A stretch of DNA of 64,000 bases from Marinobacter halotolerans (GTDB lineage: Bacteria; Pseudomonadota; Gammaproteobacteria; Pseudomonadales; Oleiphilaceae): the NCBI RefSeq assembly GCF_008795985.1, contig NZ_VMHP01000001.1:620001-684000 (forward strand). Direction: 5' to 3'. The notes beneath the pieces were generated by a model. That model was not told where the DNA came from and ran no database searches. It was given only the letters and a program-made list of their open reading frames with translations. The position numbers and the translations under genes are program-made. Shown here in pieces: positions 27,263 through 63,477 of the stretch. Each line of letters opens with the position of its first letter. Position 1 is the first letter of the stretch.

Positions 27263-27360
27263 AGTAGGACACCCTTTTTGAAAAACGCTACAAGCACATC
27301 CCTGTGCGCTTGGGCTCCGCCATCCATGGCTCCGCACATTTTCAAAAAGGGTGTCCTACT
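27263..27360. repeat. Conserved-core, variable-arm structure A (ureF-ureG intergenic)
   Basis: Left arm 27263-27284 and right arm 27339-27360 are a perfect 22-bp inverted repeat (AGTAGGACACCC... / ...GGGTGTCCTACT). The 54-nt core contains two small hairpins, GCACATCCCTGTGC and GCCATCCATGGC. The core differs from copy B at one base, while the arms are unrelated to those of the other copies. Confidence 0.9.
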
Positions 27361-27401
27361 CGCCTCCCCGGTCTTCGGAGTTGTCTTCTAATTCGTTTTC
27401 T

Positions 27402-28097
27402 TTAGCTTCTAAACAGTCTTGAGTACTGTGTTTCGTGTTGGGCGCTACCAAGCGCCAGGCCCGGAATGATCGGGCCGAGGTCCGGGTTATTCATCTGCAA
27501 TGCGTTATCCACCGCTTTCACCAGTTCCGGGCGCAGTTGTTCCGTCAGCCGCTGGGCGGCGGTGTGGCCGAGGGGCATGGCTTTGCAGGCGACGGCAAGC
27601 TGGTTTTCCAGCCAGGCCCAGGCGAAGCCCAGCAGCGCCTGGCGGTCGGGGACCGCGCGTAAGTGGGCGGCCCAGGCGAAGACGGTGACGTAGCCGGGTT
27701 CTTCGGGCATCAGGCCGTCTGGTGGCAGCAGGTTCAGGCTGTTCAGCAGGCGCACCAGGGCGCTGCCCAGGCGCAGGTCTTCGTCGCTGAGTTCGGCGGT
27801 TTCCCGGGTGGCGTGTAGCCAGGCGTTCCACTGGGCCAGTGCATCTGCGTCTTCCTCTGCCCAAGCCCGTTTCAGGCGCAGCAGCAGGGGCAGTTCGCAA
27901 CGGGTCAGGCCGTCTTCCAGTACGCCTTCGAGCCATTGTCCCAGCTGTTTTTCATTGTTCACCCAGCCCAGTTCAAAGGCGCTTTCCAGCCCCTGGGACC
28001 AGGCGAAGGCGCCGATGGGCAGTGCGGGGCTGACCAGTTGCATCAGTCCCAGTAGGGCCATGTCGTTGACGCTGGTCTGAGGGTTTTCAGCTTGCAT
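27402..28097 (-). CDS. ureF: Urease accessory protein UreF
   Basis: A 231-residue helical protein. MQLVSPALPIGAFAWSQGLE near the N-terminus and a C-terminal segment with NPDLGPIIPGLALGSAQHETQYSRLFRS (the lysine/arginine-rich tail and conserved terminal region) identify UreF. It forms the UreDFG complex that gates nickel and CO2 entry to the active site. The start at 28097 overlaps the ureE gene by 11 bp and has AAGGGG 7 nt upstream; the long frame from 28181 reads through the histidine tail of UreE in another frame. It is followed by structure A before ureG. Confidence 0.95.
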   Translation of the reverse strand: MQAENPQTSVNDMALLGLMQLVSPALPIGAFAWSQGLESAFELGWVNNEKQLGQWLEGVLEDGLTRCELPLLLRLKRAWAEEDADALAQWNAWLHATRETAELSDEDLRLGSALVRLLNSLNLLPPDGLMPEEPGYVTVFAWAAHLRAVPDRQALLGFAWAWLENQLAVACKAMPLGHTAAQRLTEQLRPELVKAVDNALQMNNPDLGPIIPGLALGSAQHETQYSRLFRS

Positions 28098-28659
28098 GGC
28101 CATGCCCCTTGTGGCGTGCGTGGCTGTGCGAATGGCTATGGGATTCACTGTGGGAATGGCTGTGGCTGTGGCCGTCTGCATGACCGTGGGAATGTCCCTG
28201 CCCCGCCTGGGCGTAGGCGCCGGATTCCGGGTCGAAAGGGGCCTGGTGGTGGATCAGGGTGGCGCCCAGGCGCTCTGCCAGCTCTTCCAGCACGTGGTCC
28301 GGCGGGAATCTTACCCAGCCGCGGGTGCCGTTTTTGGCGGTGAGTTCTTCGCCGATGGCAAGGGTGACGTGGCGGTTGCCCAGGTGGTAGCACAACCTGG
28401 CCATGGGCAGGCCCATTTCGATGTAGGCGGTGACCACCGGTTCTTCCGCCGCGCGGATGCGGATGATTTCGCCGGTTCTGGCGGCCAGGCAGGCGCCGTC
28501 ACGCAACACCGGGCCGCGGTCCAGGAACAGGCCGACGTCGTGGCCGGTGTCGGTTCTGGCCCGCAGGCGGCCGCGCTGGCGCAGCTCGTACGGCAGGGTC
28601 AGGTGGTCGTGTATTTCGCTGGCTTCTACCAGGCCGACGCGTTCGATGAGTTCCAGCAT
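28087..28659 (-). CDS. ureE: Urease nickel metallochaperone UreE
   Basis: A 190-residue protein. The N-terminal peptide-binding domain begins MLELIERVGLVEASEIHDHL; the central RDGACLAARTGEIIRI and YHLGNRHV (conserved metal-site histidine) are typical. The last 35 residues are a histidine-rich tail of about 16 His alternating with Ser and Gly, as in UreE of Klebsiella, for binding several nickel ions. It is preceded by GGGAGA at 6 nt. It lies 10 bp after ureC and overlaps ureF. It captures Ni2+ and passes it to UreG. Confidence 0.95.
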   Translation of the reverse strand: MLELIERVGLVEASEIHDHLTLPYELRQRGRLRARTDTGHDVGLFLDRGPVLRDGACLAARTGEIIRIRAAEEPVVTAYIEMGLPMARLCYHLGNRHVTLAIGEELTAKNGTRGWVRFPPDHVLEELAERLGATLIHHQAPFDPESGAYAQAGQGHSHGHADGHSHSHSHSESHSHSHSHARHKGHGHAS

Positions 28660-28669
28660 CTCAGTCTCC

Positions 28670-30373
<1,704 letters not shown>

Positions 30374-30440
30374 GCTGTCCCTCGTTTTTTGCTTGGGTGC
30401 CTGGGTTCTTTTGGCCTGATACTTGGGTGCCGGGGCCGGT

Positions 30441-30534
30441 CGGATAGGGCTTTCCAGGAAACGCTACAAGCACATCCATGTGCGCTTGGGCTCCGCCATC
30501 CATGGCTCCGCACATTCCTGGAAAGCCCTATCCG
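30441..30534. repeat. Conserved-core, variable-arm structure B (ureB-ureC intergenic)
   Basis: Arms 30441-30460 and 30515-30534 pair perfectly over 20 bp (CGGATAGGGC... / ...GCCCTATCCG), with further partial pairing outside. The 54-nt core is identical to structure A except for one base. It lies within the transcribed urease operon. Confidence 0.9.
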
Positions 30535-30587
30535 CCCGACCCTTTTAGCTCCTTCGGGCCTACGTTTGATCCTCGCTCCCCTTATCC

Positions 30588-30902
30588 TCAGTTTTTATCC
30601 AATTTGCCCATGACTTCTTGGCGGAAACCGTAGATTTCCCGGTTACCGGCATAGGGAATTAAGGTCACTTCGCGGGTCTGGCCAGGTTCGAAACGAATGG
30701 CGGTGCCGGCGGCGACGTCCAGGCGGTAGCCCTTGGCCTTTTCCCGGTCGAAATCGAGAGCGGGATTGGTTTCGGCGAAGTGGTAGTGGGAGCCCACCTG
30801 GATTGGGCGGTCGCCGCTGTTGCCGACTTCGATGGTGATGCGTTCGCGGCCTTCGCACAGTTCGATGTCGCCGTCTTTGAGGTCGTATTCTCCGGGGATC
30901 AT
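30588..30902 (-). CDS. ureB: Urease beta subunit UreB
   Basis: A 104-residue protein of the expected size, beginning [39 protein letters not shown] is the characteristic core and [24 protein letters not shown] the C-terminal part. It packs with UreA and UreC into the heterotrimer. The start at 30902 has AAGGAGG upstream; the longer frame from 31019 is the ureA sequence in another frame. It lies 10 bp after ureA. Structure B separates it from ureC. Confidence 0.97.
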
Positions 30903-30912
30903 GGCAACCTCC

Positions 30913-31215
30913 TTACACGATCGGGTTATGGACGGTGACGAGCTTGGTGCCGTCCGGGAAGGTGGCTTCGACCTGTACTTCGTCGACCATTTCAGCCACG
31001 CCTTCCATGACGTCGTCACGGGTGAGGATTTCGGTGCCGGCGGTCATCATGTCCGCTACGCTGCGGCCTTCGCGGGCGCCTTCCATGATTTCGGCGCTGA
31101 TGAGGGCGACGGCTTCGGGGTAATTGAGCTTCAGGCCTTTGGCCTTGCGGCGCTCGGCTAACAGGGCTGCGGTGAAGAGGAGCAGCTTGTCTTTGTCTCT
31201 TGGGGTTAGTTCCAT
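30913..31215 (-). CDS. ureA: Urease gamma subunit UreA
   Basis: A 100-residue protein, full length for Ure[24 protein letters not shown], then [19 protein letters not shown] and [15 protein letters not shown] are near-invariant family segments. It is the smallest structural subunit of bacterial three-chain ureases. It lies 33 bp after ureD and 10 bp before ureB; a GGGAGA ribosome site precedes the ATG. The separate A and B subunits, rather than a fused one, are the usual form in free-living proteobacteria. Confidence 0.97.
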
Positions 31216-31248
31216 TTTTGTTCTCCCGGTACTTTGGCGTTCTTTGAA

Positions 31249-32157
31249 TCAGGTCAGCCAGATTCTGGGAATCACGGCGGGCTGGCCTGTCAGCATTGGT
31301 CTTAAAACTTCCCAGGCGTGTTGGCAGGTCGCCCAGGCTTCGTTTCGTTCATTGCCCAGATAGCGCAGCAACACCACCCCTCGACGGCGCGTGACTGCCC
31401 AGTGTTTGGATTCGGGTAATTGCTCGCGTATTGCTTCGATGGCGCCGGGTTCGTCTTCCAGGCCGACGACCCACAGGGTGGCCTGAACCGTTGCGCCGCC
31501 CTGACCCCATTTGCCCTGGAAACGAGGGTGCGTGGGGTCGAGGATCTGGCGTTCCAGCCACAGGGGTTTGCCTTCCAGGCTCAGGCTGAAGCGTTGTTCC
31601 AGGTGGCCGGTGACGAAGGGTAAGTCGCCCACCGGGCGACCCAGGGCGAGGACTTCCCAGCCGATGCATTTGGCGCCGCTTTCCAGTTCGATGGTGGTGG
31701 TCTGTTCGCCCTTAGAGCCGTTGAAGGCCAGGGTTTCCTGGGGGAGGTATTCCAGGGTGCCACCGGTGGCGACTTTTAGACCGGTGTGCTGACCCCAGGC
31801 GACGCCGTTGCGGTCGGCTTTGTAGAGTTTGGCGGCGGCGGGTGTGGTTAGTAGGGTGTGGGCGCCTTGCCCTACGGTGACGTCGATCCCAAGTGAGTCA
31901 CCACTTACTAACCCGCCCGGGGGATGCAGCAGGTAGACGTGGCAGCAGCCGGTTTTGCCTTCGGGATAGAAGGGGCGCTGGACCCGCAGCGGGCCTTTGT
32001 GGCGGATGCGGGTCATGCGGGTGATCGAGCTTTTCTGTTCTTGCCGCGCTTCGAATCCCAACTGGATCGACGCCGCCCAGCGCCGGTCCGCGTCGAAGCG
32101 GTGGCCGGAGTCCTCTTGGGAAAGAGGGTTGGCTGGCAGGCGTTCGAAGACTGTCAT
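31249..32157 (-). CDS. ureD: Urease accessory protein UreD (UreH)
   Basis: A 302-residue protein. RPFYPEGKTGCCHVYLLHPPGGLVSGD, TTPAAAKLYKA, LEYLPQETLAFNGS and GWEVLALGRP are diagnostic. UreD is the scaffold that binds the apo-urease and provides a tunnel for nickel from UreG. Its ATG overlaps the urtE stop (ATGA), so urease maturation is translationally tied to the urea transporter. This overlap is good evidence that urtABCDE and ure form one transcription unit, apart from the partial stop after urtA. Confidence 0.95.
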   Translation of the reverse strand: MTVFERLPANPLSQEDSGHRFDADRRWAASIQLGFEARQEQKSSITRMTRIRHKGPLRVQRPFYPEGKTGCCHVYLLHPPGGLVSGDSLGIDVTVGQGAHTLLTTPAAAKLYKADRNGVAWGQHTGLKVATGGTLEYLPQETLAFNGSKGEQTTTIELESGAKCIGWEVLALGRPVGDLPFVTGHLEQRFSLSLEGKPLWLERQILDPTHPRFQGKWGQGGATVQATLWVVGLEDEPGAIEAIREQLPESKHWAVTRRRGVVLLRYLGNERNEAWATCQHAWEVLRPMLTGQPAVIPRIWLT

Positions 32158-32852
32158 ACCGTCAGGTGCTTCTTGATGAGTTCATCGGAAAGCTCGCTGA
32201 TCTGGCCGCCAGCGACCCGGCGGCCGCGGTCCATGATGGCGAAGTTATCGGCGTATTTGCGGGCGAAGGGCAGCTTCTGCTCTACCAGGAGCACCGTCAG
32301 GCCGTCTTCTTCGATCAGCCGGCGGATGACTTCGCCGATCTGGGCGACGATGTTGGGCTGGATGCCCTCCCCCGGTTCGTCCAGGATCAGCAGTCGTGGT
32401 TCGATGACCAGGGCGCGGCCGATGGCCAGTTGCTGTTGCTGGCCGCCCGAAAGGTCGCCGCCGCGGCGGTTTTTCATTTCCTTGAGCACGGGGAAAAGTT
32501 CGTACACCCGTTCGGGGATTTTCTTGCTGCCGTCCTTGCGCACCGCCAGGCCGACGCGGAGGTTTTCTTCCACGGTCAGCAGCGGAAAAATCTGGCGACC
32601 CTGGGGTACGTAGCCGATGCCCAGGCGGGAGCGGTCTTCCACTTTTTTCTGGGTCAGTTCCACGTCGCCGGCAAATTCGATGCGGCCGCTTTTGACGGTT
32701 TCCTCGCCCATCACGCATTTCATCAGGGTGGTTTTACCCACGCCGTTGCGTCCCATCACGCAGGTGCACTGGCCCTGGGGGACGTCCAGGTCCAGATCCC
32801 ACAGGGTGTGGCTTTCGCCATAGAACTGGTTGAGTTTTTCTATCTTCAGCAT
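32154..32852 (-). CDS. urtE: Urea ABC transporter ATP-binding protein UrtE
   Basis: A 232-residue ABC ATPase of the branched-chain amino acid/urea (LivF) type. Walker A GRNGVGKTT (residues about 34-42), signature LSGGQQQQLAIGRAL and Walker B LLILDEPGEGI are intact. The GIGYVPQGRQIFPLLTVEENL segment is typical of UrtE. With UrtD it powers the UrtBC permease for high-affinity urea uptake. The start shares one base with the urtD stop (TAATG) and the stop overlaps ureD, so translation is coupled on both sides. Confidence 0.95.
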   Translation of the reverse strand: MLKIEKLNQFYGESHTLWDLDLDVPQGQCTCVMGRNGVGKTTLMKCVMGEETVKSGRIEFAGDVELTQKKVEDRSRLGIGYVPQGRQIFPLLTVEENLRVGLAVRKDGSKKIPERVYELFPVLKEMKNRRGGDLSGGQQQQLAIGRALVIEPRLLILDEPGEGIQPNIVAQIGEVIRRLIEEDGLTVLLVEQKLPFARKYADNFAIMDRGRRVAGGQISELSDELIKKHLTV

Positions 32853-33676
32853 TACGCCTCCTCCCCCAGATACACCTTGATCACTTCGGGGTCGTTGGAG
32901 ACCTGGTCCATGGTGCCCTCGGCCAACACGCTGCCCTGGTGCAGCACGGTCACTTTGCGGGCGATAGAGCGCACAAAGCCCATGTCGTGTTCCACCACCA
33001 CAACCGATTGTTTACCCGCCAGGCTGGTGAGCAGTTCGGCGGTGCGTTCCATTTCCTGTTCGGTCATGCCGGCGACGGGTTCGTCCACCAGCAGCAGTCT
33101 GGGTTTCTGCATCAGCAGCATGCCGATTTCCAGCCACTGCTTCTGGCCGTGGGAGAGGATGCCCGCCAGGCGGTCGCGCAGGTCTTTCAGGCCGATGGTT
33201 TCCAGTACTTCATCGATACGTTCCCGGTATTCGGGCCGCATGACGGCGCGAAGTGTCGGAATAATGCGTTTGTCGGTGGCCATGGCCAGTTCCAGGTTTT
33301 CAAAAACCGTCAGCGCCTCGAACACTGTGGGTTTCTGGAACTTGCGGCCGATGCCCAGGCTGGCGATTTCCGGCTCGTTCATCCGCAGCAGGTTATGGCG
33401 GCTGCCGAACCAGACAGAGCCGGTGTCCGGGGCGGTTTTACCGGTGATGATGTCCATCATGGTGGTTTTGCCGGCCCCGTTAGGCCCGATGATGCAGCGC
33501 AGTTCGCCGTCGTCGATGGTCAGGTTCAGGTTGTTGATGGCCTTGAAGCCGTCAAAACTGACGTTTACATCCTCCAGATACAGGATCGGGCCGTGGCGCG
33601 TGTCCACAGGCGATGCTTCCGGTGTCAGGAAGTGGAACACGTGCTCGCGGTCGGCGAGTTCGTCGAAAAGGCTCAT
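32852..33676 (-). CDS. urtD: Urea ABC transporter ATP-binding protein UrtD
   Basis: A 274-residue ABC ATPase of LivG type. Walker A GPNGAGKTTMMDIITG and Walker B LLLVDEPVAGMT are present; the signature position reads LSHGQKQWLEIGMLL, the SHGQ variant that is characteristic of UrtD rather than the LivG consensus SGG. An N-terminal extension of about 35 residues precedes the nucleotide-binding domain. It overlaps urtC by 4 bp (ATGA). It forms the heterodimeric motor with UrtE on the cytoplasmic side of the membrane. Confidence 0.95.
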   Translation of the reverse strand: MSLFDELADREHVFHFLTPEASPVDTRHGPILYLEDVNVSFDGFKAINNLNLTIDDGELRCIIGPNGAGKTTMMDIITGKTAPDTGSVWFGSRHNLLRMNEPEIASLGIGRKFQKPTVFEALTVFENLELAMATDKRIIPTLRAVMRPEYRERIDEVLETIGLKDLRDRLAGILSHGQKQWLEIGMLLMQKPRLLLVDEPVAGMTEQEMERTAELLTSLAGKQSVVVVEHDMGFVRSIARKVTVLHQGSVLAEGTMDQVSNDPEVIKVYLGEEA

Positions 33677-34806
33677 GCGGTCGCCTCCTTGCCGGTTGCG
33701 TTTCCGTCATCCGAATCATCGGCTTTGGCTTTGCGGCGGTTGAACAGCAGGCCGGCAATGCCCTTGGGCAGGAACACGGTCACCAGCACGAACAGACCGC
33801 CCAGGGCGAACAGCCAGGCATCCGGCATCACACCGGTGAACACGGTTTTGGCGTAGTTCACCAATATTGCCCCGATGACCGCGCCGTAAAGGGTGGCGCG
33901 ACCGCCCAGGGCGACCCACACCACGATCTCGATGGAGAACAGCGGCGAGAATTCGCTGGGGTTGATGATGCCCACCTGGGGCACGTAAAGCGCACCGGCG
34001 ACACCGGCGATCATGGCGGACACCACGAACACGAACAGCTGCACCCGGTCCACCCGGTACCCCAGGAAGCGGGCGCGGGCCTCGGCGTCGCGGCAGGCGA
34101 TGCTGACCCGGCCCAGTTTGCTGGTGACAATGCCCCGGCACACCAGGTAGCCGATCGCCAGGGCAATGCCGGAAGCAATGAACAGCGCCAGGCGCGTGGC
34201 GTCTGTGCGCAGGTTAAAACCGAGGATGTCGCGGAAATCGGTCAGGCCGTTGTTGCCGCCAAAGCCCATTTCGTTGCGGAAGAAGGCCAGCATCAGCGCG
34301 AAGGTCAGCGCCTGGGTGATGATGGACAGGTAAACGCCGGTGACCCGGGAGCGGAAGGCCAGGAAGCCGAACACCAAAGCCAGCAGCCCTGGGGCCAGCA
34401 TCACCATCAGGAAGGCGAACCAGGCCATGTCGAAGCCGTGCCAGAACCAGGGCAGCTCCTGCCAGTTGAGGAACACCATGAAGTCCGGCAATACCGGGTC
34501 GCCATACACGCCCCGGTCGCCGATCTGGCGCATCAGGTACATGCCCATGGCGTAGCCGCCCAGGGCAAAGAAGGCACCGTGGCCCAGGCTGAGGATACCC
34601 AGATAGCCCCACACCAGGTCCACCGCCACCGCCAGCAGCGCGTAGCAGAGGTATTTGCCCATCAGGGTCACGGTGTAGGAGCTGACGTAAAGTGCGCTAT
34701 CTTCCGGCATCGCCAGGTGCAGGAAAGTAACCACAATCAGGGCAGCGAACAGGACGCCCAGAAAAATCTGGGTTGAACGTTCACACAAGGGTCGTGATAG
34801 CCACAT
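33673..34806 (-). CDS. urtC: Urea ABC transporter permease UrtC
   Basis: A 377-residue LivM-type permease with about ten membrane helices. YLGILSLGHGAFFALGGYAMGMYLMRQ is the conserved N-terminal permease block, and CRDAEARARFLGYRVDRVQLFVFVVSAMIAGVAGALY the cytoplasmic EAA-like coupling region. It pairs with UrtB to form the channel for urea. The start at 34806 lies 4 nt after the urtB stop. The C-terminal tail is charged (RRKAKADDSDDGNATGKEA). Its function is well supported by operon context. Confidence 0.95.
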   Translation of the reverse strand: MWLSRPLCERSTQIFLGVLFAALIVVTFLHLAMPEDSALYVSSYTVTLMGKYLCYALLAVAVDLVWGYLGILSLGHGAFFALGGYAMGMYLMRQIGDRGVYGDPVLPDFMVFLNWQELPWFWHGFDMAWFAFLMVMLAPGLLALVFGFLAFRSRVTGVYLSIITQALTFALMLAFFRNEMGFGGNNGLTDFRDILGFNLRTDATRLALFIASGIALAIGYLVCRGIVTSKLGRVSIACRDAEARARFLGYRVDRVQLFVFVVSAMIAGVAGALYVPQVGIINPSEFSPLFSIEIVVWVALGGRATLYGAVIGAILVNYAKTVFTGVMPDAWLFALGGLFVLVTVFLPKGIAGLLFNRRKAKADDSDDGNATGKEATA

Positions 34807-34809
34807 AGC

Positions 34810-36408
34810 TTAACCCTCCGCCGCTCGGCCTTTCTGGGGGAAGAGCCCCTTCGGCCGTTTCTGGATGAACAGGATGATGAACACCAGCACGATGATTTTC
34901 GCCAGTACCGCGCCCGCCCAGGGCTCCAGCAGCTGGTTGATGGTGCCCAGCGACAGACCCGCAATCAACGTGCCCCAGAGGTTACCGACACCGCCGAACA
35001 CCACCACCATGAACGAATCGATGATGTAGTTCTGGCCCAGGTTCGGCCCCACGTTGGTCAGCTGTGACAGCGCCACGCCCGCCAAACCGGCCACGCCGGA
35101 GCCCAGGGCGAAGGTCATGATGTCTACCCGGGTGGCGCGGATGCCCATGGAGCGGGCCATGTTGCGGTTCTGGGTGACTGCGCGAACTTCCAGGCCCAGG
35201 CGGGTCTTGCGCATGATCAGCATCAGTGCGGTGAACACAATCAGCGCGAAGGCGAGTACATATAGCCGGTTGAGCGTCAGCGACAGGGCGTCGTTGATGA
35301 CCACTGAGCCACTCATCCACTCCGGCGTCACCACCGTGCGGTTCTGGGGGGAAATCACGGTGCGCACCAGCTGCTGCAGAATCAGGCTGATGCCGAAGGT
35401 GGCTAGCAGGGTTTCCAGCGGGCGGCCTTTGAGGAATTGAATCACGCTGCGTTCGATGATGATGCCCGCCGTGGCGGACACCAGAAAGCCGGCGGGTATC
35501 GACAGCATCAGTGCAAGGCCCGGCTGGCCCGGCAGCAGTTGCTGCATACCCCAGGTGGTGTAGGCACCCAGCATGATCAGTTCGCCGTGGGCCATATTGA
35601 TCACGCCCATCACGCCGAAGGTGATGGCCAGGCCGATGGCGGCCAGTACCAGAACCGAGCCGAGTGACAGCCCGAAATAGAGAGTCTCGGCGGCGCGGTT
35701 GAGTTTCAGTTTCTGCTCGACACTGGCCAGCGCTTCTTTGGCTTTCTGGGCCAGGGCCGGATTGTCGCCGCGAACGGCTTCGCTGAGCGCCGCCCGCGCG
35801 TTGGGGTGCAGGCTGCCGGCCAGTACGTCGATAGCGTCCATATCGCCTTCACCCACCCGGTAAATCGCCACGGCTTCGCGAATACGGTTGCGCACATCGG
35901 CGTTTTCTTCGGTCTCCAGGCGGGCTTCGAGAGGTTCTACCAGTGAGGCGTCCACCTTACCCATCATGTCCTGTGCGGAGGCTTCGCGCACATCGGGGTC
36001 GGCGGCGTTGAGGTCCAGCATGGCAAGGATGCCTTCCAGCTGGCCCCGAATACGGTTGTTGATGGCGACTCTGTCCAGCTCTCGGCGGGACATTTCGCCC
36101 ATGTTCTCTCCGGTCAGGGGGTCGGCAATTTCCCAGTCCCTGCCACGGTTATTCAATACGAGTACGACCTGACCGGTGTCTTTGACCCGGCTCAGCCGAT
36201 TGTTGCCGTAGGCTTCCAGCCAGCCGCGGGCGCGTTCGTCGCCACTGCTGACGATGGCATTGATGGCTTCTTCCACTTTGCTGGCCGGTGCTTCCGCCAG
36301 ATTGGTGAGCAACGCCTTGCCAGGATCTGCGTCCTGATCCTGAGCTGCTGCAGGGCTGATCATTAGGATGGCGAAAAGCAGCAAGGTGAGCGATCGGATG
36401 ATGCTCAT
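34810..36408 (-). CDS. urtB: Urea ABC transporter permease UrtB with N-terminal periplasmic extension
   Basis: A 532-residue protein. A signal-like segment (SLTLLLFAILMISPAAAQ) leads to a domain of about 200 residues with helical repeats (VREASAQDMMGKVDASLVEPLEARLETEENADVRNRI), as in HEAT-type folds, which is typical of UrtB but absent from LivH. The permease proper follows from about residue 235 (SLGSVLVLAAIGLAITFGVMGVINMAHGELIMLGAYT). The start at 36408 has GGACGGAA upstream; the frame from 36468 is rejected. It is preceded by the intergenic terminator that follows urtA. Confidence 0.93.
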   Translation of the reverse strand: MSIIRSLTLLLFAILMISPAAAQDQDADPGKALLTNLAEAPASKVEEAINAIVSSGDERARGWLEAYGNNRLSRVKDTGQVVLVLNNRGRDWEIADPLTGENMGEMSRRELDRVAINNRIRGQLEGILAMLDLNAADPDVREASAQDMMGKVDASLVEPLEARLETEENADVRNRIREAVAIYRVGEGDMDAIDVLAGSLHPNARAALSEAVRGDNPALAQKAKEALASVEQKLKLNRAAETLYFGLSLGSVLVLAAIGLAITFGVMGVINMAHGELIMLGAYTTWGMQQLLPGQPGLALMLSIPAGFLVSATAGIIIERSVIQFLKGRPLETLLATFGISLILQQLVRTVISPQNRTVVTPEWMSGSVVINDALSLTLNRLYVLAFALIVFTALMLIMRKTRLGLEVRAVTQNRNMARSMGIRATRVDIMTFALGSGVAGLAGVALSQLTNVGPNLGQNYIIDSFMVVVFGGVGNLWGTLIAGLSLGTINQLLEPWAGAVLAKIIVLVFIILFIQKRPKGLFPQKGRAAEG

Positions 36409-36444
36409 GGTTCCGTCCTGTGTGTTATTGGTATGTTGCGGTGC

Positions 36445-36475: not shown

Positions 36476-36494
36476 GTCAGGCCCTAGCTGCCCC

Positions 36495-50617: not shown

Positions 50618-50627
50618 TCCGGCGGCT

Positions 50628-55138: not shown

Positions 55139-55141
55139 ATT

Positions 55142-55157
55142 TGGGATTGTATTCCCA
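55142..55157. promoter_or_regulatory. Shared dyad operator 1 (TGGGA-N6-TCCCA), before DUF6502
   Basis: TGGGATTGTATTCCCA is a 5-bp palindrome separated by 6 AT-rich bases, adjoining the DUF6502 start codon on its upstream side. The same motif with the same 6-bp spacing recurs twice upstream of the second DUF5666 gene. Confidence 0.65.
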
Positions 55158-55216
55158 TCGCGACATCAAAAGCCAGAAACCCCGGGCAGGCGCTGGCCTG
55201 CCCGGGCATTTTCCGG

Positions 55217-56704
55217 TCAGTCGTCGGAATCGTCGTTGTCACTGTCGTTACTGTCGTCGTTGTCGTCGTCAGTGTCGTCGTCGTCAATCTCGAGATCCTC
55301 CGTCAGCTGATACTGGCCGCCGGCGGTCATCATGTACTCCGCTTCCACCCTGCTGCCTGCGGTGGCGCCGGAGGTGCTATAGCCATTGAGCAGAATTTCC
55401 AGGTTCATCAGCGTAATGGAAACCGGGCCGACGGCACTGGCCCGGGCTTCCAGTTCGTAGTCGTCGTCGTCATCATCGTCTTCCCGTTCAATGCTGAAGG
55501 CCTCGAGAAAACCACCTCCGCTGTTGCGCTGACGTCCCTCGATCTCCAGATAGTCACCGACGCTCAGGCTCTGGATGTCCTGGACCCGGCTGCGGCGATC
55601 GTCATCGTCATCATCGTCGTCATCGATAAGGGTATTGCCGGTGAGCTGAACACGAACGCCACTGACCATCAGCGACTCATCTGTCAGATCAATGGATTCG
55701 ATACGGCCATCCAGTTCGGCATCCGACTCCTGGCCCTCGATTTCTTCAGCCACAAGTACGCCATTGCGGAAATCTCCTTCAACCTTGACGAATACGCCAT
55801 CGGCCAGGCTGTTACGGCCGATATCGTCAAACTCTGTGCCGGACGTTACCCGGACCGTCACGCCGTTAATCGAGAACTGCTGACTGGCGGCATCGAAGTC
55901 ATAGATGGTTCCCGATATTTCCACATCGTCGTTGTCATCGAACAGATCGTCTTCGTCGTCGATTTCCTCGGCAATGATGACGCCGCCACTAAGGCGACCC
56001 TCCACCTCGACCGCGAGGCCATTGGCCAGGTCGTCGAGGGAGAAATCATCGTCACCGGTTGCGCTGGTGTAATCGACCGGGAAACCGTTGATGGTGAAGG
56101 TCTCTGCGCTTGTATCCAGATTGGCGACAATGCCTTCAATTTCCACTTCGTTGTCATCATCGAATTCGAGACCGATGGCGCGGGCACCGACATAGCTGGC
56201 CCGGAAGCTGCCATCGTCAAGACGCCAGGCGCTGATGCGCACACGGTAACCCTGCGGATTGGCAGCAAGGGCAGTTGGTGTGGCACCACGGAATACCGTC
56301 TTACTATCCAGGGCAATGGTCTGACCGAGGAGTGTCAGGGTTCCGCTACGGGCCGCATCGTCCCAGCTCATACCGGACACCGGCCCCCGCAGTGTGTCGT
56401 CGTAGCGTATCCGGTCGGCACGGCCTTCGCCGCGGTCATCCCAATCGCCGTCAACCTTGAGGATCATTCCCTTGCGGAGCTGATCCTCCCGCTCGAACCC
56501 ATCGTCGCTTTCCACGCTGCCATTGGTGGAAAACCGGGTGCCGTTGACATAAACGCTGCCAAACCCCGACACCGCGCCGACGCTGGTACCGGAGGACGTG
56601 CCGCTGCCGGATGAACCCCCGGAGCCACCACAGGCCACAAGCGTTCCGGCAACCGCGCCGGTCATTGCCAACTTTATCGATAAAGCGAGTGCGTTGCGTT
56701 TCAT
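55217..56704 (-). CDS. DUF5666 lipoprotein, second copy, very acidic
   Basis: A 495-residue lipoprotein (signal MKRNALALSIKLAMTGAVAG, lipobox LVAC with cysteine at residue 25) then GTSSGTSVGAVSGFGSVYVNGTRF, homologous to the first DUF5666 protein at 52737. It carries the same repeated beta elements (LAVEVEGRLSGGVIIAEEI, DGVFVKVEGDFRNGVLVAEEI), runs of eight aspartates (two sites) and a D/N/S-rich tail ending DNDDSDD. These acidic runs may bind calcium or keep the protein soluble outside the cell. Its own promoter region contains two dyad operators. The paralogue pair suggests a local duplication. Confidence 0.7.
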   Translation of the reverse strand: MKRNALALSIKLAMTGAVAGTLVACGGSGGSSGSGTSSGTSVGAVSGFGSVYVNGTRFSTNGSVESDDGFEREDQLRKGMILKVDGDWDDRGEGRADRIRYDDTLRGPVSGMSWDDAARSGTLTLLGQTIALDSKTVFRGATPTALAANPQGYRVRISAWRLDDGSFRASYVGARAIGLEFDDDNEVEIEGIVANLDTSAETFTINGFPVDYTSATGDDDFSLDDLANGLAVEVEGRLSGGVIIAEEIDDEDDLFDDNDDVEISGTIYDFDAASQQFSINGVTVRVTSGTEFDDIGRNSLADGVFVKVEGDFRNGVLVAEEIEGQESDAELDGRIESIDLTDESLMVSGVRVQLTGNTLIDDDDDDDDDRRSRVQDIQSLSVGDYLEIEGRQRNSGGGFLEAFSIEREDDDDDDDYELEARASAVGPVSITLMNLEILLNGYSTSGATAGSRVEAEYMMTAGGQYQLTEDLEIDDDDTDDDNDDSNDSDNDDSDD

Positions 56705-56741
56705 TGTTCTTCTCCAGGCTCTGTTCGTCTGTCTTTACTTC

Positions 56742-56763
56742 AATTGGGATATTTTTCCCAATT
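56742..56763. promoter_or_regulatory. Shared dyad operator 2
   Basis: AATTGGGA-N6-TCCCAATT, an 8-bp perfect dyad, 38 bp upstream of the second DUF5666 start. The centre is 27 bp from that of operator 3, about 2.5 helical turns. Confidence 0.7.
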
Positions 56764-56771
56764 ACTGTATT

Positions 56772-56787
56772 TGGGAATATATTCCCA
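56772..56787. promoter_or_regulatory. Shared dyad operator 3
   Basis: TGGGAATATATTCCCA, with the same half-sites and 6-bp spacing as operators 1 and 2. Together with operator 2 it could hold two dimers over the DUF5666 promoter. Confidence 0.7.
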
Positions 56788-56835
56788 TTTTTAGAGCCTG
56801 TCCACTTTTTGAACAAAATATTTTATGGGCGCTCT

Positions 56836-57210
56836 TCAGTACGCCCGGGCATGCCGCGCACCGTCGGCCCCATGAAAGAGATGAACGACAGCCTGTTCGG
56901 GAACGTAAGCACTGCGGCGCAACATAATGCGGTCGTCGTCAGTCAGCTCAACCACGCCTTTACGAAGCAGCTCATTACGCACAACGGCTGGCGAGAGCAG
57001 AGAATCACACTGGTACACCAGGCGATCAAAGCCGTTCTCTTTGTCACCGTATGCCCGCAACAAACGGGGCTCGTTGTCGGCGCCTAGAAAATGTTCATTG
57101 CGAATCCAGTGCCGGATAACGTTCCGGCAAGGTCTGGACAGAAGAGCATTGACGAGTTCGGCGGGCTGCCAGTGAAATTTGGTTTGTGAACAGACCTCAA
57201 GATGTTTCAT
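56836..57210 (-). CDS. Short DUF6502-like protein (C-terminal half only)
   Basis: A 124-residue protein. CRNVIRHWIRNEHFLGADNEPRLLRAYG resembles the SGWVHDPVFCTESGEPRKLPF region of the DUF6502 protein at 54263, and PAVVRNELLRKGVVELTDDDRIMLRRSAYVPE matches its PRAVLEELVRVGVVATDGEDKLALRQRAYVP. The N-terminal helix-turn-helix half is missing, so it is either a truncated paralogue or a natural short form. The start at 57210 has GGAGA 7 nt upstream; the frame from 57261 is rejected. It precedes the second DUF5666 gene by 131 bp with two dyad operators between. Confidence 0.6.
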   Translation of the reverse strand: MKHLEVCSQTKFHWQPAELVNALLSRPCRNVIRHWIRNEHFLGADNEPRLLRAYGDKENGFDRLVYQCDSLLSPAVVRNELLRKGVVELTDDDRIMLRRSAYVPEQAVVHLFHGADGARHARAY

Positions 57211-57357
57211 CTCTGTTCTCCGTTGATTCGTCAGGGTGTTTGCTACTGACAACGACGGCACTGGCCGTTTTATTCCCGGAAGTGACAGAATGATTTGTGA
57301 ACTTTCCTGACAGGCCCGCGTAACCTTATGACCACGCGCACAAAACAGGTGAAACCA

Positions 57358-57525
57358 ATGCTGGGATTTCTGAAAGGCGATCCGAAGAAGAAGTTGCAGA
57401 AAGAATACGAAGCTAAGTTACAGAAGGCACTCCATGCCCAGCGCAATGGGGACTTGCGGACCCACGGTACGCTGATGGAAGAAGCCGAAAAGATTTACGA
57501 GGAAATTCAGAAGCTGAACAAATAA
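57358..57525 (+). CDS. DUF6435 family small protein
   Basis: A 55-residue protein: MLGFLKGDPKKKLQKEYEAK then LQKALHAQRNGDLRTHGTLM and a helical charged end EEAEKIYEEIQKLNK. The pattern matches DUF6435, a short gammaproteobacterial family of unknown function. The start at 57358 has AGGTG 7 nt upstream; a longer frame from 57328 adds ten residues. It stands alone, divergent from the short DUF6502-like gene, with hairpin structure C just after it. Confidence 0.75.
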   Translation: MLGFLKGDPKKKLQKEYEAKLQKALHAQRNGDLRTHGTLMEEAEKIYEEIQKLNK

Positions 57526-57552
57526 CAGCTCTATATCCTTGGCGGGCGGGTC

Positions 57553-57655
57553 GGCAGGCATACCCCTGCTCAAAACACGCCCGTAAATACGTCCCTGTAG
57601 GGCTCGGTCGCGCCATCCCTGGCGCTCTACGGTTTTGCACAGGGGTATGCCTGCC
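57553..57655. repeat. Conserved-core, variable-arm structure C (between DUF6435 and cbpM)
   Basis: Arms 57553-57576 (GGCAGGCATACCCCTG then CT, CAAAAC) and 57632-57655 pair over 24 positions with a 2-base mismatch. The 55-nt core keeps two hairpins in the same places, the second being GCGCCATCCCTGGCGC, whose bases differ from A and B yet still pair. It is the most diverged of the four. Confidence 0.85.
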
Positions 57656-57665
57656 AACCTACTGG

Positions 57666-58010
57666 CTAAGTATCGCTCATAAAGTGACGGAGCTGCCGAT
57701 TGAGACGATCGACCTCCCGCCGCATTTCCTGAACCTCGTCCAGAAGTTCCAGCGACATGGCCAGCCCGGGCAGGTTCATTTTCAGATCCCGCTGCAGGCG
57801 TTGGGCCTTTCGTAAACGGGCCAGCGCCTGAAGATCAAACTGCCACTGTCGAGCGTCGGGCGAATCGTCTACCGGCGCAATAACCCCGTAGTTCACCAGC
57901 TTGATTACGAACTCCGCATGGCAATCCCCACGCTCGCAGACTTCCCGCAGGGTGAACGTAGCGTTCGGTTCTACCAGTTCGACGCTCAGAATGTGGTCTC
58001 TGTCAGTCAT
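57666..58010 (-). CDS. cbpM: Chaperone modulatory protein CbpM
   Basis: A 114-residue MerR-like winged helix plus coiled coil, without a ligand domain: LREVCERGDCHAEFVIKLVNYGVIAP is the helix-turn-helix-like start and LLDEVQEMRREVDRLNRQLRHF the C-terminal coiled coil. CbpM binds the J-domain of CbpA and blocks its co-chaperone action. It follows cbpA by 13 bp on the same strand, the usual cbpA-cbpM operon. The size matches the E. coli protein (101 residues) with a small extension. Confidence 0.9.
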   Translation of the reverse strand: MTDRDHILSVELVEPNATFTLREVCERGDCHAEFVIKLVNYGVIAPVDDSPDARQWQFDLQALARLRKAQRLQRDLKMNLPGLAMSLELLDEVQEMRREVDRLNRQLRHFMSDT

Positions 58011-58023
58011 CCTTCACCCCCGC

Positions 58024-59007
58024 CTACACGTGCAGTTTGCTGCGTGGATTGAAGCCTTTTTCGGCCTCGGCCAGTTTCCTGTAGAGCCTTTCAGCCTCCT
58101 CGGAATGCCGCTCGGGCATGGCGACCTGCAGAATCACAATCTGGTCGCCAGGATGCTTGCCGGGCAGGCCCTTGCCTTTTAAGCGAAGCCGGCTGCCACT
58201 GGAAGAGCCCTTGGGGACTTTCACGTTTACCTTGGAGCCCACGGTGGGCACCGTGATCGAGCCACCCAGGGCTGCTTCCCAGGGGGCAACGGGCACGGTA
58301 ATGACGATATCCCGGCCCTCAATAGTAAAGTGTGGATGCGGCGCGTATTCCACTTCGATGAACAGATCGCCGTTCTCCGCACCGCCAACGCCGGGCGCAC
58401 CCTGGCCTTTCAGGCGAATATGCTGGCCTTCTTTCATGCCGGCGGGGATCTTCACCTTCAGGGTTTTCTGGCGCTGCATCACCCGGCCATTGGCGTCGGG
58501 TTCCTGAACGTTGAAAGTGACCTGTTTCTCGCAGCCGTGAAATGCCTCTTCCAGGAACAGCGCCAGCCTGGCGTGAACGTCTTCACCCCGCATACGCATG
58601 GAATGCCGCTGGCCGCCGAAGCCGCCGCCAAAGCCAGAACCGAAACCGGCACCGGCGCGACGGCCACCACCGAAGATTTCTTCAAAGAAGTCACTGAACT
58701 GCCCGGCATCGGCTTCGGTGTAGCCACCGCCGCCAAAGCCGGAAGCACTTTCCCAGCCTGGAGGACGCTGGAACGATCCGTCTTTGCGGGCACCGTACTT
58801 CTTCAGCTCGTCGTATTCTGCGCGCTTTTCAGGGTCTTTCAATACCTCATAGGCCTCGCCAACGTCCTTGAATTTATCGGCGGCATTGTCTTCCTTGCTG
58901 ACGTCCGGATGGTATTTCCGGGCCAGTTTGCGGTAGGCCTTCTTGATTTCCTCGGGGGAGGCAGACTCGCTCACACCCAAGACGGCGTAATAGTCTTTAA
59001 AGTCCAT
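58024..59007 (-). CDS. cbpA: Curved-DNA-binding co-chaperone CbpA (DnaJ homologue)
   Basis: A 327-residue J-protein. The J-domain (about residues 1-70) contains RKYHPDV, the HPD needed to stimulate DnaK; a Gly/Phe-rich linker ([20 protein letters not shown]) follows, then the two C-terminal beta-domains ([22 protein letters not shown]). There is no zinc-finger CxxCxGxG region, which separates CbpA from DnaJ. The start at 59007 has GAGGAAACGA upstream; the frame from 59019 adds four residues. The next gene is divergent. It works as a DnaK co-chaperone and a DNA-binding protein in stationary phase. Confidence 0.9.
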
Positions 59008-59204
59008 TCGTTTCCTCACACCTGCCAGGAGTCATGCTTATTTAATCTGTAGCTACTCCTATATTTGATGACAAAGTGAAAATTACAAGGTGGCGGGTAT
59101 CCGGATTGATGCTTATCGGCACAATGGCGGTGCAATCTTGTTTTCTACCCACGCCCTGCCCTAGGCTGTGACGATTGGAAGCAGCGCAGAGGACATTGTC
59201 CATC

Positions 59205-59957
59205 ATGCAAGAATCGGAGCTGGAGCGAAGGGCTGGCTGGAAAAGCTCTCCCCTGATCGGGATGTTGGCCAGCATTGCGTTCGTCGGCGTTATTCTTGCG
59301 ATCCTGTATTCCCTGGGCATCCATGAGCGGGTCGTGGTGATGCTTCAGTGGTTTGAAGCTCAGGGCGCCTGGGCTGCGCTTCTTTTCATTCTGCTGATGA
59401 TGGTGACCGTGGTTGCCCTGCTCCCGGGCTTTCTGTTCACCACCGGTGCCGGCTTCGTGTTTGGTGTCTTCGAAGGCACCGTCTATGTGGTTGCGGGTAC
59501 GGTCCTTGGAGCTGCTATTGCATTCCTGATATCTCGGCACCTTTTCGGAGACCGAGCAAAAGAGTTCGTGATGGCCAGGGCCCGCCTGCGACTGATGAGC
59601 AATGAGCTGACGCCCCACGGCTGGAAGATTGTACTTCTGACCCGGCTTATTCCGTTTTTCCCCGGCAAGCTTTCCAACTATTTCTTCGGCCTGACCCGCT
59701 TCTCGTTCCGGGGTTTTGTCGGCGGCTCCGCCGTGGGCCTTATCCCGTTCTCGCTCCACAACGTCTACCTGGGATCCATCGCCGCAGATCTGACGGTTCT
59801 TGGCGTCCGGGAAACCGGCCGGTCACCCCTTGAATGGGCCATTTACGGTGCGGGCTTTGCCGGCACGGTGCTGGCAGTGATCTACCTGAATATCCTGGCG
59901 CGGCGAGCGCTGGCCAAATACACAGACGAGGACCATAGCCTGGAGATTAAACAGTGA
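59205..59957 (+). CDS. TVP38/TMEM64 family membrane protein
   Basis: A 250-residue protein with about six helices. MVTVVALLPGFLFTTGAGFVFGVFEGTVYVVAGTVLGA and the later RLIPFFPGKLSNYFFGLTRFSFRGFVGGSAVGLIPF are the paired half-helix motifs of the SNARE-associated/DedA-TVP38 superfamily, thought to scramble or transport lipids. The start at 59205 is used; an upstream in-frame TTG at 59175 is possible. The stop overlaps the next gene by 4 bp (GTGA), coupling it to a glycoside hydrolase-like protein. About 200 bp upstream, toward cbpA, holds the two divergent promoters, which I cannot place precisely. Confidence 0.85.
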   Translation: MQESELERRAGWKSSPLIGMLASIAFVGVILAILYSLGIHERVVVMLQWFEAQGAWAALLFILLMMVTVVALLPGFLFTTGAGFVFGVFEGTVYVVAGTVLGAAIAFLISRHLFGDRAKEFVMARARLRLMSNELTPHGWKIVLLTRLIPFFPGKLSNYFFGLTRFSFRGFVGGSAVGLIPFSLHNVYLGSIAADLTVLGVRETGRSPLEWAIYGAGFAGTVLAVIYLNILARRALAKYTDEDHSLEIKQ

Positions 59958-62194
59958 CCTGGATGAAGTGGCTACCCTGGCGTTTCGTGGTGAAACGCGT
60001 TGCCCGTCAACACGGGTTTCTCGATCCCATTGCCCTGCTTTCCAAGCTCCACGGTTTTGCGCAACCGTCGGAAGTTGGCGAACCCATTGAGCTGCTGCGG
60101 GCCGGTGTAGTTTTCCATGCCCGGGGCCTGATCAACAGCCGGGTGATACAGCACAATCTGGACTGGGTCTGGCCTTACTGGATCGAACGGCAGTTTGATC
60201 CGAAGGACCCGTCGTTCATTCCCCGGGCCTTCTCCATTACCCACATCAACCTAAGCAACCGTAACTGGACCGCGGTGGGACATCCGGACTGTGACGAGCT
60301 GCCCATTGTGGACCCGAGAGGCCTGCTGACGCCTTTCTTCGACAGCTGGTCCCTGGATGGATGGCTGCTGGCGGATGACGGACGCTGCCTGCTGCCCTCG
60401 CGCACCAAAAATACTCGGCAGTGGCAGGAAACCGAAGACAACGTCCGTGTTCATACAGAATCCGCGATGGACGGTCTGGGACTGAGCAGCAGTTCCTGGG
60501 TGGAGCTGGAAAACGGCATCCCGGTCTGCAAATTCCGGATAAGGGCAACCTCGGACGTGGCAGGTTCGGTGGTTCTGGCCCTGCGACCGGCAAACCCTGA
60601 AGGCATCAGCTTTATTCATAAGGTAAGTGTGTCGGGCGAGCGGGATGCGTGGACGGTGGATGGTCAGCGTTCGGTGAGCTTCAGTGCCCCGGCTGACCGG
60701 CACCACGTATCCGACTACATCAATGGTGATGTGCATATTCATCTGACGGACCGTGAAGACCAGACCGAGGGCGTCTGTGATGTGGGCATGGTGACCGCTG
60801 CGGCCCTGTTTTCCGTCGAAGCCGGGGTCACCCGTGAAATCACCGCCAGCATTCCCCTGAGCGACAAGCCCGCGCGCCTGCCCGAGCCCGATGCCTGGCA
60901 GACCGAACGGGAAGGCCATGCCCGACTGGTATGCCCGGAACCCCGCTATCAGTTTCTCTATGATTCGGCGGTGGCATCGCTGGTTCTGCATTCGCCGGAG
61001 GATGTCTATCCCGGTCCCTTCACCTACAAGCGCTTCTGGTTCCGCGATGCGGCCTTCATCATCAATGCGCTGCTGAGCATTGGCCTGACCGGCCGCGCCG
61101 AACGGGCCCTGTCCCAATTTCCGGACCGCCAGACCCGCAGCGGTTATTTCCGCTCACAGGAAGGGGAATGGGACGCCAATGGTGAGGTGCTGTGGGTTCT
61201 CAAGCGGTTTTTCGATCTGACCGGGCAACGCCCGGACAACCGCTGGCAGGGTGCGATCAGCCGTGGCGCCCGGTGGATTACCAACAAGCGACTGAGCGGG
61301 GAGACCGAGGCACCCCACGCCGGGCTGCTGCCCGCGGGTTTCAGCGCTGAACACCTGGGCCCCAACGATTATTACTATTGGGATGACTTCTGGGGCATCT
61401 CCGGGCTGCACGCCGCAGCGGCCATGCTTGCCGAAGACAGGCCGGAAGACAGCAAGGCCTTCCGGGAAGATGCTGCCGAGTTTACCAAGGCCGTCGACCG
61501 CAGCCTCGAGCGCTGCCAGCAACGGCTGAAACGCCCGGGCATGCCCGCCTCACCCTATCGTCGCCTGGACGCCGGTGCCATTGGTTCCCTGGCAGTGGGC
61601 TACCCCACCCAGCTCAGCGAACCGGATGATCCACGCCTGCTGGACTGCGCGGAATTTCTGATGGAGCGTTGCTTTGTTGACGGCGCCTTCTACCAGGACA
61701 TGATCCATTCCGGCCTGAATGCCTATCTGACCCTGCACGTGGCCCAGGTTCTGCTGCGGGCCGGGGACCCGCGCTATCTGGAGCTGATGGATTCGGTGGC
61801 GGATCTGGCCTCGCCTACCGGCCAGTGGCCTGAAGCCATCCATCCCGGCACCCGGGGTGGATGCATGGGCGACGGGCACCATGTCTGGGCCTCAGCGGAA
61901 TGGGTGCTGATGGTACGAAACTGCTTTGTGCGGGAAGAAGGCGAACGCCTGGTGCTTTGCGACGGTGTGCCGGAGCGCTGGCTGGAACAGAACGAGCCCA
62001 TCAGTTTTGGGCCGGCGCCAACGAGCTTTGGCAGGGTTTTAGTGAGCATCACCCCCAACGCGGGGGACGCTCCGACGGTTTCATGGACCGCCGACTGGCA
62101 CGGCACAGAGCCGCCCATTGAGGTGAAACTGCCAGGTTATAAACCAGTGGTGGCGGGCCCGGATTCGGGCTCCGCCACTCTGGAAAAGATCTGA
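59954..62194 (+). CDS. Glycogen-debranching/GH15-like (alpha/alpha)6-barrel protein
   Basis: A 746-residue protein. The N-terminal half is a beta-rich domain (residues about 60-290, e.g. VELENGIPVCKFRIRATSDVAGSVVLALRP). The C-terminal half contains YPGPFTYKRFWFRDAAFIINALLSIGL, typical of six-hairpin glycosidases (FRD is the substrate-binding signature of the glucoamylase/debranching group), and DYYYWDDFWGISGL. It is distant from standard GlgX. It starts at GTG 59954, overlapping the TVP38 stop; ATG at 59963 is an alternative. No signal peptide. Its substrate is unknown; the gene pair recurs as a membrane-glycan unit only by inference. Confidence 0.7.
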   Translation: MTWMKWLPWRFVVKRVARQHGFLDPIALLSKLHGFAQPSEVGEPIELLRAGVVFHARGLINSRVIQHNLDWVWPYWIERQFDPKDPSFIPRAFSITHINLSNRNWTAVGHPDCDELPIVDPRGLLTPFFDSWSLDGWLLADDGRCLLPSRTKNTRQWQETEDNVRVHTESAMDGLGLSSSSWVELENGIPVCKFRIRATSDVAGSVVLALRPANPEGISFIHKVSVSGERDAWTVDGQRSVSFSAPADRHHVSDYINGDVHIHLTDREDQTEGVCDVGMVTAAALFSVEAGVTREITASIPLSDKPARLPEPDAWQTEREGHARLVCPEPRYQFLYDSAVASLVLHSPEDVYPGPFTYKRFWFRDAAFIINALLSIGLTGRAERALSQFPDRQTRSGYFRSQEGEWDANGEVLWVLKRFFDLTGQRPDNRWQGAISRGARWITNKRLSGETEAPHAGLLPAGFSAEHLGPNDYYYWDDFWGISGLHAAAAMLAEDRPEDSKAFREDAAEFTKAVDRSLERCQQRLKRPGMPASPYRRLDAGAIGSLAVGYPTQLSEPDDPRLLDCAEFLMERCFVDGAFYQDMIHSGLNAYLTLHVAQVLLRAGDPRYLELMDSVADLASPTGQWPEAIHPGTRGGCMGDGHHVWASAEWVLMVRNCFVREEGERLVLCDGVPERWLEQNEPISFGPAPTSFGRVLVSITPNAGDAPTVSWTADWHGTEPPIEVKLPGYKPVVAGPDSGSATLEKI

Positions 62195-62217
62195 CCAGGA
62201 AAGCCTGAAGAGCGGGC

Positions 62218-63282
62218 CTATCGGACCTTGGGGTCCAGCTCGCCGGCGGCGTAACGTTCGAACATGCGCTCGAGGTTCATCGGCTTGATCTTGTCGGCGT
62301 TGCCGGCGGTTCCGAAGGCTTCATAGCGGGCGATACAGACTTCGGTCATCGCCTTCATGGTTTCTTTGAGGAGCTTGCGCGGGTCAAACTCGGCCGGGTT
62401 CTGGGCCAGGAAGCGACGGGTCGCGCCGGTACTTGCCAGACGCAGGTCGGTGTCGATGTTGACCTTGCGAACGCCGTGTTTGATGCCTTCAACGATTTCC
62501 TCAACCGGCACGCCGTAGGTTTCCGGAATCTCGCCGCCGTATTCGTTGATGATTTTCAGCCATTCCTGGGGCACGGAGCTGGAGCCATGCATGACCAGGT
62601 GGGTATCCGGGATGCGGGCGTGGATCTTTTTGATCTGCTCGATGGCCAGGATGTCGCCGGTGGGCGGCCGGGTGAACTTGTAGGCGCCGTGGCTGGTGCC
62701 GATGGCGATGGCCAGGGCGTCCACGTGGGTTTTCTTGACGAAGTCGGCGGCTTCTTCCGGATCGGTCAGCATCTGGCTGTGGTCCAGGGTGCCTTCGGCG
62801 CCAATGCCGTCTTCTTCACCGGCCTGGCCGGTTTCCAGAGAGCCCAGGCAGCCCAGCTCGCCTTCCACGGATACGCCACAGGCGTGGGCCATTTCCACGG
62901 TGCGACGGGTAACGTCGACGTTGTATTCGTAGTCGGTGGGGGTTTTGCCATCTTCACCGAGGGAGCCGTCCATCATTACGGAGCTGAAGCCCAGCTGAAT
63001 GGAGCGCTGGCACACGGACGGGCTGGTGCCGTGGTCCTGGTGCATGACCACGGGAATGTGGGGAAATTCTTCAATGGCCGCCAGAATGAGGTGGCGCAGG
63101 AAGGGGGCGCCAGCATATTTGCGGGCACCTGCAGAGGCCTGAACAATCACCGGTGAGTTGGTTTTGTCAGCCGCTTCCATGATGGCGCGCATCTGCTCAA
63201 GGTTGTTCACGTTGTAGGCCGGCACGCCATAACCGTGCTCGGCGGCGTGGTCCAGCAGTTGCCGCATCGATATCAGGGCCAT
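62218..63282 (-). CDS. fba: Class II fructose-1,6-bisphosphate aldolase (Calvin-type)
   Basis: A 354-residue zinc aldolase. [36 protein letters not shown] begins the barrel; [12 protein letters not shown] gives a zinc ligand and catalytic acid, [15 protein letters not shown] is typical of the Calvin-cycle subgroup, and the later [19 protein letters not shown] and [11 protein letters not shown] give the last zinc ligands and the phosphate loop. It acts in glycolysis and gluconeogenesis. It lies downstream of pgk on the same strand, separated by 243 bp that hold structure D, so the two are probably one transcript. Confidence 0.95.
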
Positions 63283-63369
63283 TGGGTTTGTCTCCTTGGT
63301 TTAACTTTGGGTCGGTAACTTTTTAGGTTCTATAGATTCTTTTATCGGGCAGAGCTTCGAGTCTGCTGC

Positions 63370-63477
63370 GGATAACAGGGTGGGGCCTTCACGGAACCGC
63401 TACGAGCACATCCATGTGCGCTTATCTCCGGCCATCCATGGCCTGCGAAATTCCGTGAAGGCCCCACCCTGTTATCC
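63370..63477. repeat. Conserved-core, variable-arm structure D (pgk-fba intergenic)
   Basis: Arms 63370-63396 and 63451-63477 are a perfect 27-bp inverted repeat (GGATAACAGGGTGGGG... / ...CCCCACCCTGTTATCC). The core is 54 nt with hairpins GCACATCCATGTGC and GGCCATCCATGGCC. It has the longest and most regular arms in the window. Confidence 0.92.

Follow-up and report, generated by a model that had tools for sequence, protein, structure and literature searches.

The question raised by this locus is why four intergenic gaps of a Marinobacter halotolerans genome should carry the same small head of two hairpins, each time enclosed by long inverted arms that were thought to share almost no sequence. 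The window, that is, the whole stretch of DNA that was analysed (64,000 nucleotides, contig NZ_VMHP01000001.1, positions 620,001 to 684,000), holds these structures, named A to D, in the following places. R denotes the structured strand, which is the minus strand of the window in all four cases, and the loops are read from the sequence.

27259..27364, minus (structured strand R): element A, ureF/ureG gap; 54-nt core, 26-bp arms, 1 mismatch
27297..27304, minus: second R hairpin of element A, CsrA-type loop CANGGANG
27321..27328, minus: first R hairpin of element A, CsrA-type loop CANGGANG
30433..30542, minus: element B, ureB/ureC gap; 54-nt core, 28-bp arms, 2 mismatches, inner 20 bp perfect
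30473..30480, minus: second R hairpin of element B, CsrA-type loop
30497..30504, minus: first R hairpin of element B, CsrA-type loop
57549..57659, minus: element C, between a convergent MerR-family gene and DUF6435 gene; 55-nt core, 28-bp arms, 3 mismatches
57590..57597, minus: second R hairpin of element C, CsrA-type loop
57614..57621, minus: first R hairpin of element C, CsrA-type loop
63370..63477, minus: element D, pgk/fba gap; 54-nt core, 27-bp arms, 0 mismatches
63409..63416, minus: second R hairpin of element D, CsrA-type loop
63433..63440, minus: first R hairpin of element D, CsrA-type loop

The two-hairpin cores of 54-55 nt and their inverted arms, as described in the initial annotation, are thus present at all four positions. 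The cores of A and B differ at one base, as had been noted, and the compensatory change claimed for the core hairpins of C and D is seen in stems that are altered yet paired. Arm pairing had been called perfect in A, B and D; along the full arms, D has no mismatch, A has one in 26 bp and B has two in 28 bp, with its inner 20 bp perfect. The folding energy of the four elements lies 6.8 to 12.4 sd under that of shuffled sequence on either strand. Nearby, the Rfam model of the 5' ureB sRNA (RF02514) scores highly antisense within ureC (window positions 29941-30226, plus strand), as it does in loci L267-L271; this match probably reflects conservation of the urease coding sequence and not an RNA gene.

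The structured strand

The loops had originally been read on the plus strand, a reading that led nowhere: none of the elements reached an Rfam cut-off, phage records gave only matches of chance length and plasmid records a single 21-nt match. The imperfect arm pairs point to the other strand. Over 202 independent copies (L078-L107 and L234 onwards being omitted as orthologues), the 4444 arm pairs read on R include 65 G·U versus 8 A·C, besides 26 other mismatches, and 52 copies carry G·U versus 8 that carry A·C (p about 5e-9). An earlier count on 213 copies, with a fit permitting the opposite wobble, had given 106 versus 16. Since G·U far exceeds A·C on the complement of the strand first read, the structured molecule is R, and the loops described initially are the complement of those that matter. 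As RNA, R is a long stem bearing two hairpins. The proposal of a selected four-way structure therefore stands as to selection, which is backed by covariation (see below) and by the strand-biased wobble, but not as to geometry, as there are three helices and they form on the other strand.

The G·U excess is also found in copies that lie antisense to their neighbouring genes (20 versus 4), and read-through from those genes is thus insufficient to account for it alone. Conversely, G·U is rare in total, so that arm pairing is more perfect than RNA alone would require. Template-switch repair of palindromes could contribute to this perfection.

Two hexaloops at a fixed distance

Both loops on R read CA-N-GGA-N-G on their stem, that is, a hexaloop A-N-G-G-A-Y closed by a C-G pair, the final loop letter being nearly always Y and the second often G, which gives ANGGAY. 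Detection by the arms alone, blind to the loop letters (spacer of 40-80 nt, 1.7 Mb of loci), yielded 289 distinct repeats, 269 of them with two copies of CANGGANG on one strand, a ratio that describes repeat content and not abundance since the loci had mostly been chosen as element carriers. Seven further repeats have one such motif and 13 have none, several of these 13 being members of other repeat families. In 268 of the 269 two-loop repeats the opposite strand is free of CANGGANG, and the starts of the two motifs lie 23-25 nt apart, again in 268/269. Ten orthologous stretches gave the same picture, with exactly two CANGGANG on one strand in 27/27 repeats.

Beneath the loops, paired changes are seen at site 1 (CG 240, AT 19, GC 9, other 1) and at site 2 (AT 238, CG 25, GC 3, other 3). 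A hairpin stem can even be swapped with the loop retained, as in the ureB/ureC elements of genomes G041 (L268) and G132 (L267), and also in L285 and L286. The cores at this junction in G079 (L270) and G037 (L271) are enlarged by an extra hairpin, which in L271 has a CANGGANG loop. Long inverted repeats of a second family, in L116, L204, L031, L071, L126 and L225, have GAAAAAGAACTCGCTTCGCTCAGACACC or its complement as a similar core within different arms and lack CANGGANG loops.

Copy number and distribution

The initial annotation had proposed a covariance-model search of the genome and its relatives, and this search uncovered a dispersed family. The model, two hairpins within 22-bp arms, was built from 11 copies of the own genome, with L004 left out for its degenerate arms. 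With 150 of 1432 candidates scored, it finds 41 copies in the own genome, including the four window elements, and it has matches in 22 of 29 genomes, namely the own genome, all 18 others of the genus and 3 of the 10 from other families. Copies per genome within the genus range from 3 to 137, with up to 142 candidates scored per genome. In wider samples, the model matches 95/244 genomes and 50/112 genera across the order, and 58/321 genomes and 52/243 genera across the class; as 16 or 12 candidates were scored per genome there, copy numbers from these samples are lower bounds. The exact core pattern occurs in at least 119 stretches of a public genome set, and all 80 matches listed are titled Marinobacter. 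A loose pattern finder returned 214 copies in the collected loci versus none in the same DNA reversed. The exact core pattern is also present in each of three viral contigs (L227, L228 and L229).

Relation to TwoAYGGAY and to CsrA sites

On R, the elements resemble TwoAYGGAY (RF01731), an RNA family that the accessible text of its report records from human gut, gamma-Proteobacteria and Clostridiales (PMC2864571), and for which, as far as a later account can be consulted, CsrA binding was predicted from the loops and the external stem is described as poorly conserved (PMC4333381, 2014-15). Common to both are two AYGGAY-type hairpin loops, a weakly conserved outer stem and full-length matches on the R strand. 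In sensitive mode the RF01731 model aligns with element B at 30419-30559 (minus strand) over its full length with 25.5 bits, under the cut-off of 43 bits, and with three of the four elements of L077 at 32-33 bits, all on R; the model loops fall on both element loops. The cut-off is reached by no copy of the window (A, C and D were scored at cut-off only), nor by any copy in 26 further loci. Whole-genome searches (up to 66 candidates scored per genome) gave matches at E<=0.001 in 18 of 29 genomes, and eight copies in seven of the 29 genomes exceed the cut-off, as opposed to 0 of 14 control genomes. Long stems by themselves attract microRNA models too, on both strands. When 19 RF01731 matches were compared by eye with the listed places of the covariance model, all 19 coincided, on R. 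We therefore assign the dispersed family to TwoAYGGAY, most of its copies scoring under the cut-off.

On this view, the elements represent an RNA family that is known but has received little study, here repeat-like and in high copy. They differ from TwoAYGGAY as recorded in their ANGGAY loops, in reaching up to 137 copies per genome and in the sub-cut-off scores of the window copies; moreover, the dispersed copies lack a gene-orientation bias, in contrast to the cis-regulatory type given to the family in Rfam. As far as our searches show, the high copy number, the strand-specific wobble, the gain and loss at individual sites and the divergent close pairs are new. A literature search, mostly without subscription papers or supplements, turned up no report of the repeat in Marinobacter or of dispersed repeats with CsrA sites.

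As far as the accessible portions of the cited papers go, CANGGANG is the published motif of CsrA sites (PMC6849547), the high-affinity form is an ANGGAX hexaloop sitting directly on a stem (PMC4005645), the SELEX consensus is RUACARGGAUGU and dual sites can be bridged at 10-63 nt (PMC7652899). The element loops have this form, being ANGGAX hexaloops on stems with two sites within 10-63 nt of each other. All 29 genomes possess a CsrA gene, and CsrA of the own genome looks ordinary, with R44 present (the source for this residue is PMC7652899, in its accessible part). We therefore favour, with a probability of roughly 0.7 on the strength of sequence comparison, the reading that each structure is a dispersed TwoAYGGAY copy that, on R, displays putative paired CsrA sites as part of a distributed pool. 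In the accessible literature, we found no validation of the predicted binding of TwoAYGGAY by CsrA.

Accordingly worded as a mechanism, R would be transcribed into a stem of 20-30 bp presenting two ANGGAY hexaloop hairpins whose CANGGANG motifs start 23-25 nt apart, and by the published rules one CsrA (RsmA) dimer would be expected to bridge both loops. The conserved head would be the part that CsrA reads, so that the outer stem may drift in sequence as long as its pairing is kept. Where transcribed, the family would act as a distributed pool of CsrA sites and thus as a CsrA decoy, and copies in operon junctions, ureF/ureG, ureB/ureC and pgk/fba among them, might also mark the mRNA locally. 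The genome may thus hold dozens of potential CsrA sites in intergenic DNA; if all copies were transcribed, there would be 82 in the own genome and up to about 270 in its richest relative. Such a pool would be akin to the sponge RNAs CsrB/CsrC and RsmX-Z in its hairpin loops of CsrA-binding form, but would differ from them in having two sites in nearly every copy, many dispersed copies and no promoter or terminator signal that we could find. With the high copy number, the strand-specific wobble, the empty sites and the geometry of pairs in hand, CsrA binding, transcription and the tuning of the regulator are directly testable.

Genomic context and the possibility of a mobile repeat

Neighbouring genes were assigned with a heuristic, codon-scored caller, as a longest-open-frame caller misplaced the neighbours of element C; some copies could not be placed, 31/213 in one count. 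Only 1 of 213 copies lies within a called gene. Independent single copies number 47 in sense with both neighbours, 41 antisense, 40 between convergent and 22 between divergent genes, so there is no orientation bias between tandem genes (47 versus 41, p=0.59), whereas convergent neighbours outnumber divergent ones (40 versus 22, p=0.03). An apparent sense excess (83 versus 45) was caused by the many ureB/ureC orthologues and disappears without them. Elements A, B and D are in sense orientation within their same-strand junctions. The absence of an orientation bias gives no support to a general cis-regulatory role. An independent small RNA is disfavoured as well, since no promoter excess was found 5' of the elements (mean best score of 7.475 on both sides, n=200, with only a sigma-70-type consensus) and a T-run follows the stem in 4/202 copies on R and in 16/202 on the complement.

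It is possible that these are simply mobile DNA repeats of the REP/REPIN or MITE kind, whose R hairpins serve as single-stranded DNA for a transposase and whose likeness to CsrA sites is incidental. High copy number, intergenic placement without orientation bias and the excess of convergent neighbours are what such a repeat would show, as is the fact that sites are occupied in some genomes and empty in others, and the one-strand wobble bias suits single-stranded DNA as well as RNA. The geometry of close pairs fits too: all 31 seen at 450 bp or less (23 distinct, some orthologous) are divergent on R, as are 9/9 in G068 (79 listed copies out of 92) and 9/9 in G122, by eye, among the copies listed. 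A shared divergent promoter was rejected as the cause of this arrangement, with spacers as short as 46 nt and no promoter excess. A doublet as the spreading unit would yield the divergent geometry, and so would insertion by one end into a palindromic target. Palindromes of REP type around GTAGGTCGGATTAG are found in L014, L018, L109, L198, L222 and L225, some of them within the spacers of divergent pairs, and another dispersed repeat adjoins an element at L077:4446-4624, with 79-93% identity in G039, G077 and G031.

However, we consider an incidental likeness unlikely. What the loops conform to is the binding rule of an RNA-binding protein, and they keep to it when the stem beneath is replaced. 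Copy numbers do not track the number of Y1 transposase genes (PF01797; Spearman 0.10, p=0.67, in the small sample of 19 genomes of the genus), which gives no support to the Y1 enzyme as the mover; genomes with Y1 tend toward more copies (p=0.36), and four genomes have 56-94 copies with no Y1 match. Among 33 copies of the own genome no two have near-identical arms, the maximal identity being 82%, so there is no sign of recent copying there. Nor is a replication-strand bias clear in G068 (45 versus 34, p=0.26), a crude comparison that assumed the origin at position 1; the GC skew, sampled in 20 stretches, did not show two clean halves. Compared with the repeats IR1_g, R0, R2 and REP of Pseudomonas fluorescens, as they appear in the accessible text of PMC2718517, the elements are likewise high-copy, intergenic and palindromic with a preference for tail-to-tail genes, but there the inverted repeats are identical and the core that they flank varies in size, whereas here the head is fixed and the arms drift and covary; the link of REP with the number of Y1 transposases is not found either. 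A further, tentative scenario is a mobile repeat, single or as a divergent doublet, that carries paired high-affinity CsrA sites, with CsrA activity being partly set by this genome-wide sink. If true, a mobile repeat would be linked to a global regulator.

That the elements are transcription terminators or general mRNA-stabilising hairpins is very improbable: their stems are very stable and prefer the 3' ends of genes, with median gaps of about 30-40 nt, but most lack a following T-run, neither role needs a fixed two-loop head and, in 38 of the 50 loci examined, an element lies in the ureB/ureC gap, inside the ure operon.

Arms, covariation and empty sites

The reading as dispersed TwoAYGGAY copies allows for stems that stay paired while their sequence drifts, and the arms behave in this way. 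In the 33 own-genome copies, arms of 22 nt are on average 46% identical versus 26% for shuffled arms, with 54% versus 28% in the inner 11 nt and 38% versus 33% in the outer 11 nt. The view that the arms share almost no sequence was thus overstated, and the strict rule of locus-specific arms fails, the arms being one diverged, covarying sequence. What remains of it is strict pairing combined with a weak constraint on sequence.

The junction ureB/ureC (site B) allows this to be followed at a single place. The alignment comprises 30 of the 38 element-bearing loci, those omitted being L241, L258 and L259 (no clean repeat detected and visibly poorer arms), L237 (outer arms mispaired by the script), L264 (a near copy of L261) and L269-L271 (length). 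Among its 29 distinct sequences, for loci with detectable arms, 98.3% of arm positions are paired and both sides have changed in 18 of the 22 arm pairs. Arms and hairpins together contain 188 double-changed cells, a number that falls to 51 or fewer if the partner is slid. A comparison of empty sites, also proposed in the initial annotation, was made at the same junction: the element is absent from 12 of the 50 loci, a sample picked to contain both states, and here only 9-27 nt separate the genes and neither arm is present. At ureF/ureG (site A), the element is present in six genomes and absent from seven.

That the core enters existing palindromes, or that its insertion makes inverted arms out of local sequence, as had been suggested, is hardly credible: at one site, species with different core subtypes have retained part of the outer arm ends, but empty sites hold neither a palindrome nor a single copy of an arm, which speaks against arms made at insertion, an arm consensus exists, mainly in the inner half, and arms at one site diverge through paired changes. 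The retention of outer ends around different core subtypes may instead point to conversion between copies. Conservation on R extends about 20 nt beyond each arm, with approximately GcTaaCtCcgaagttnG on the 5' side and CctnCnCCnAAgc on the 3' side.
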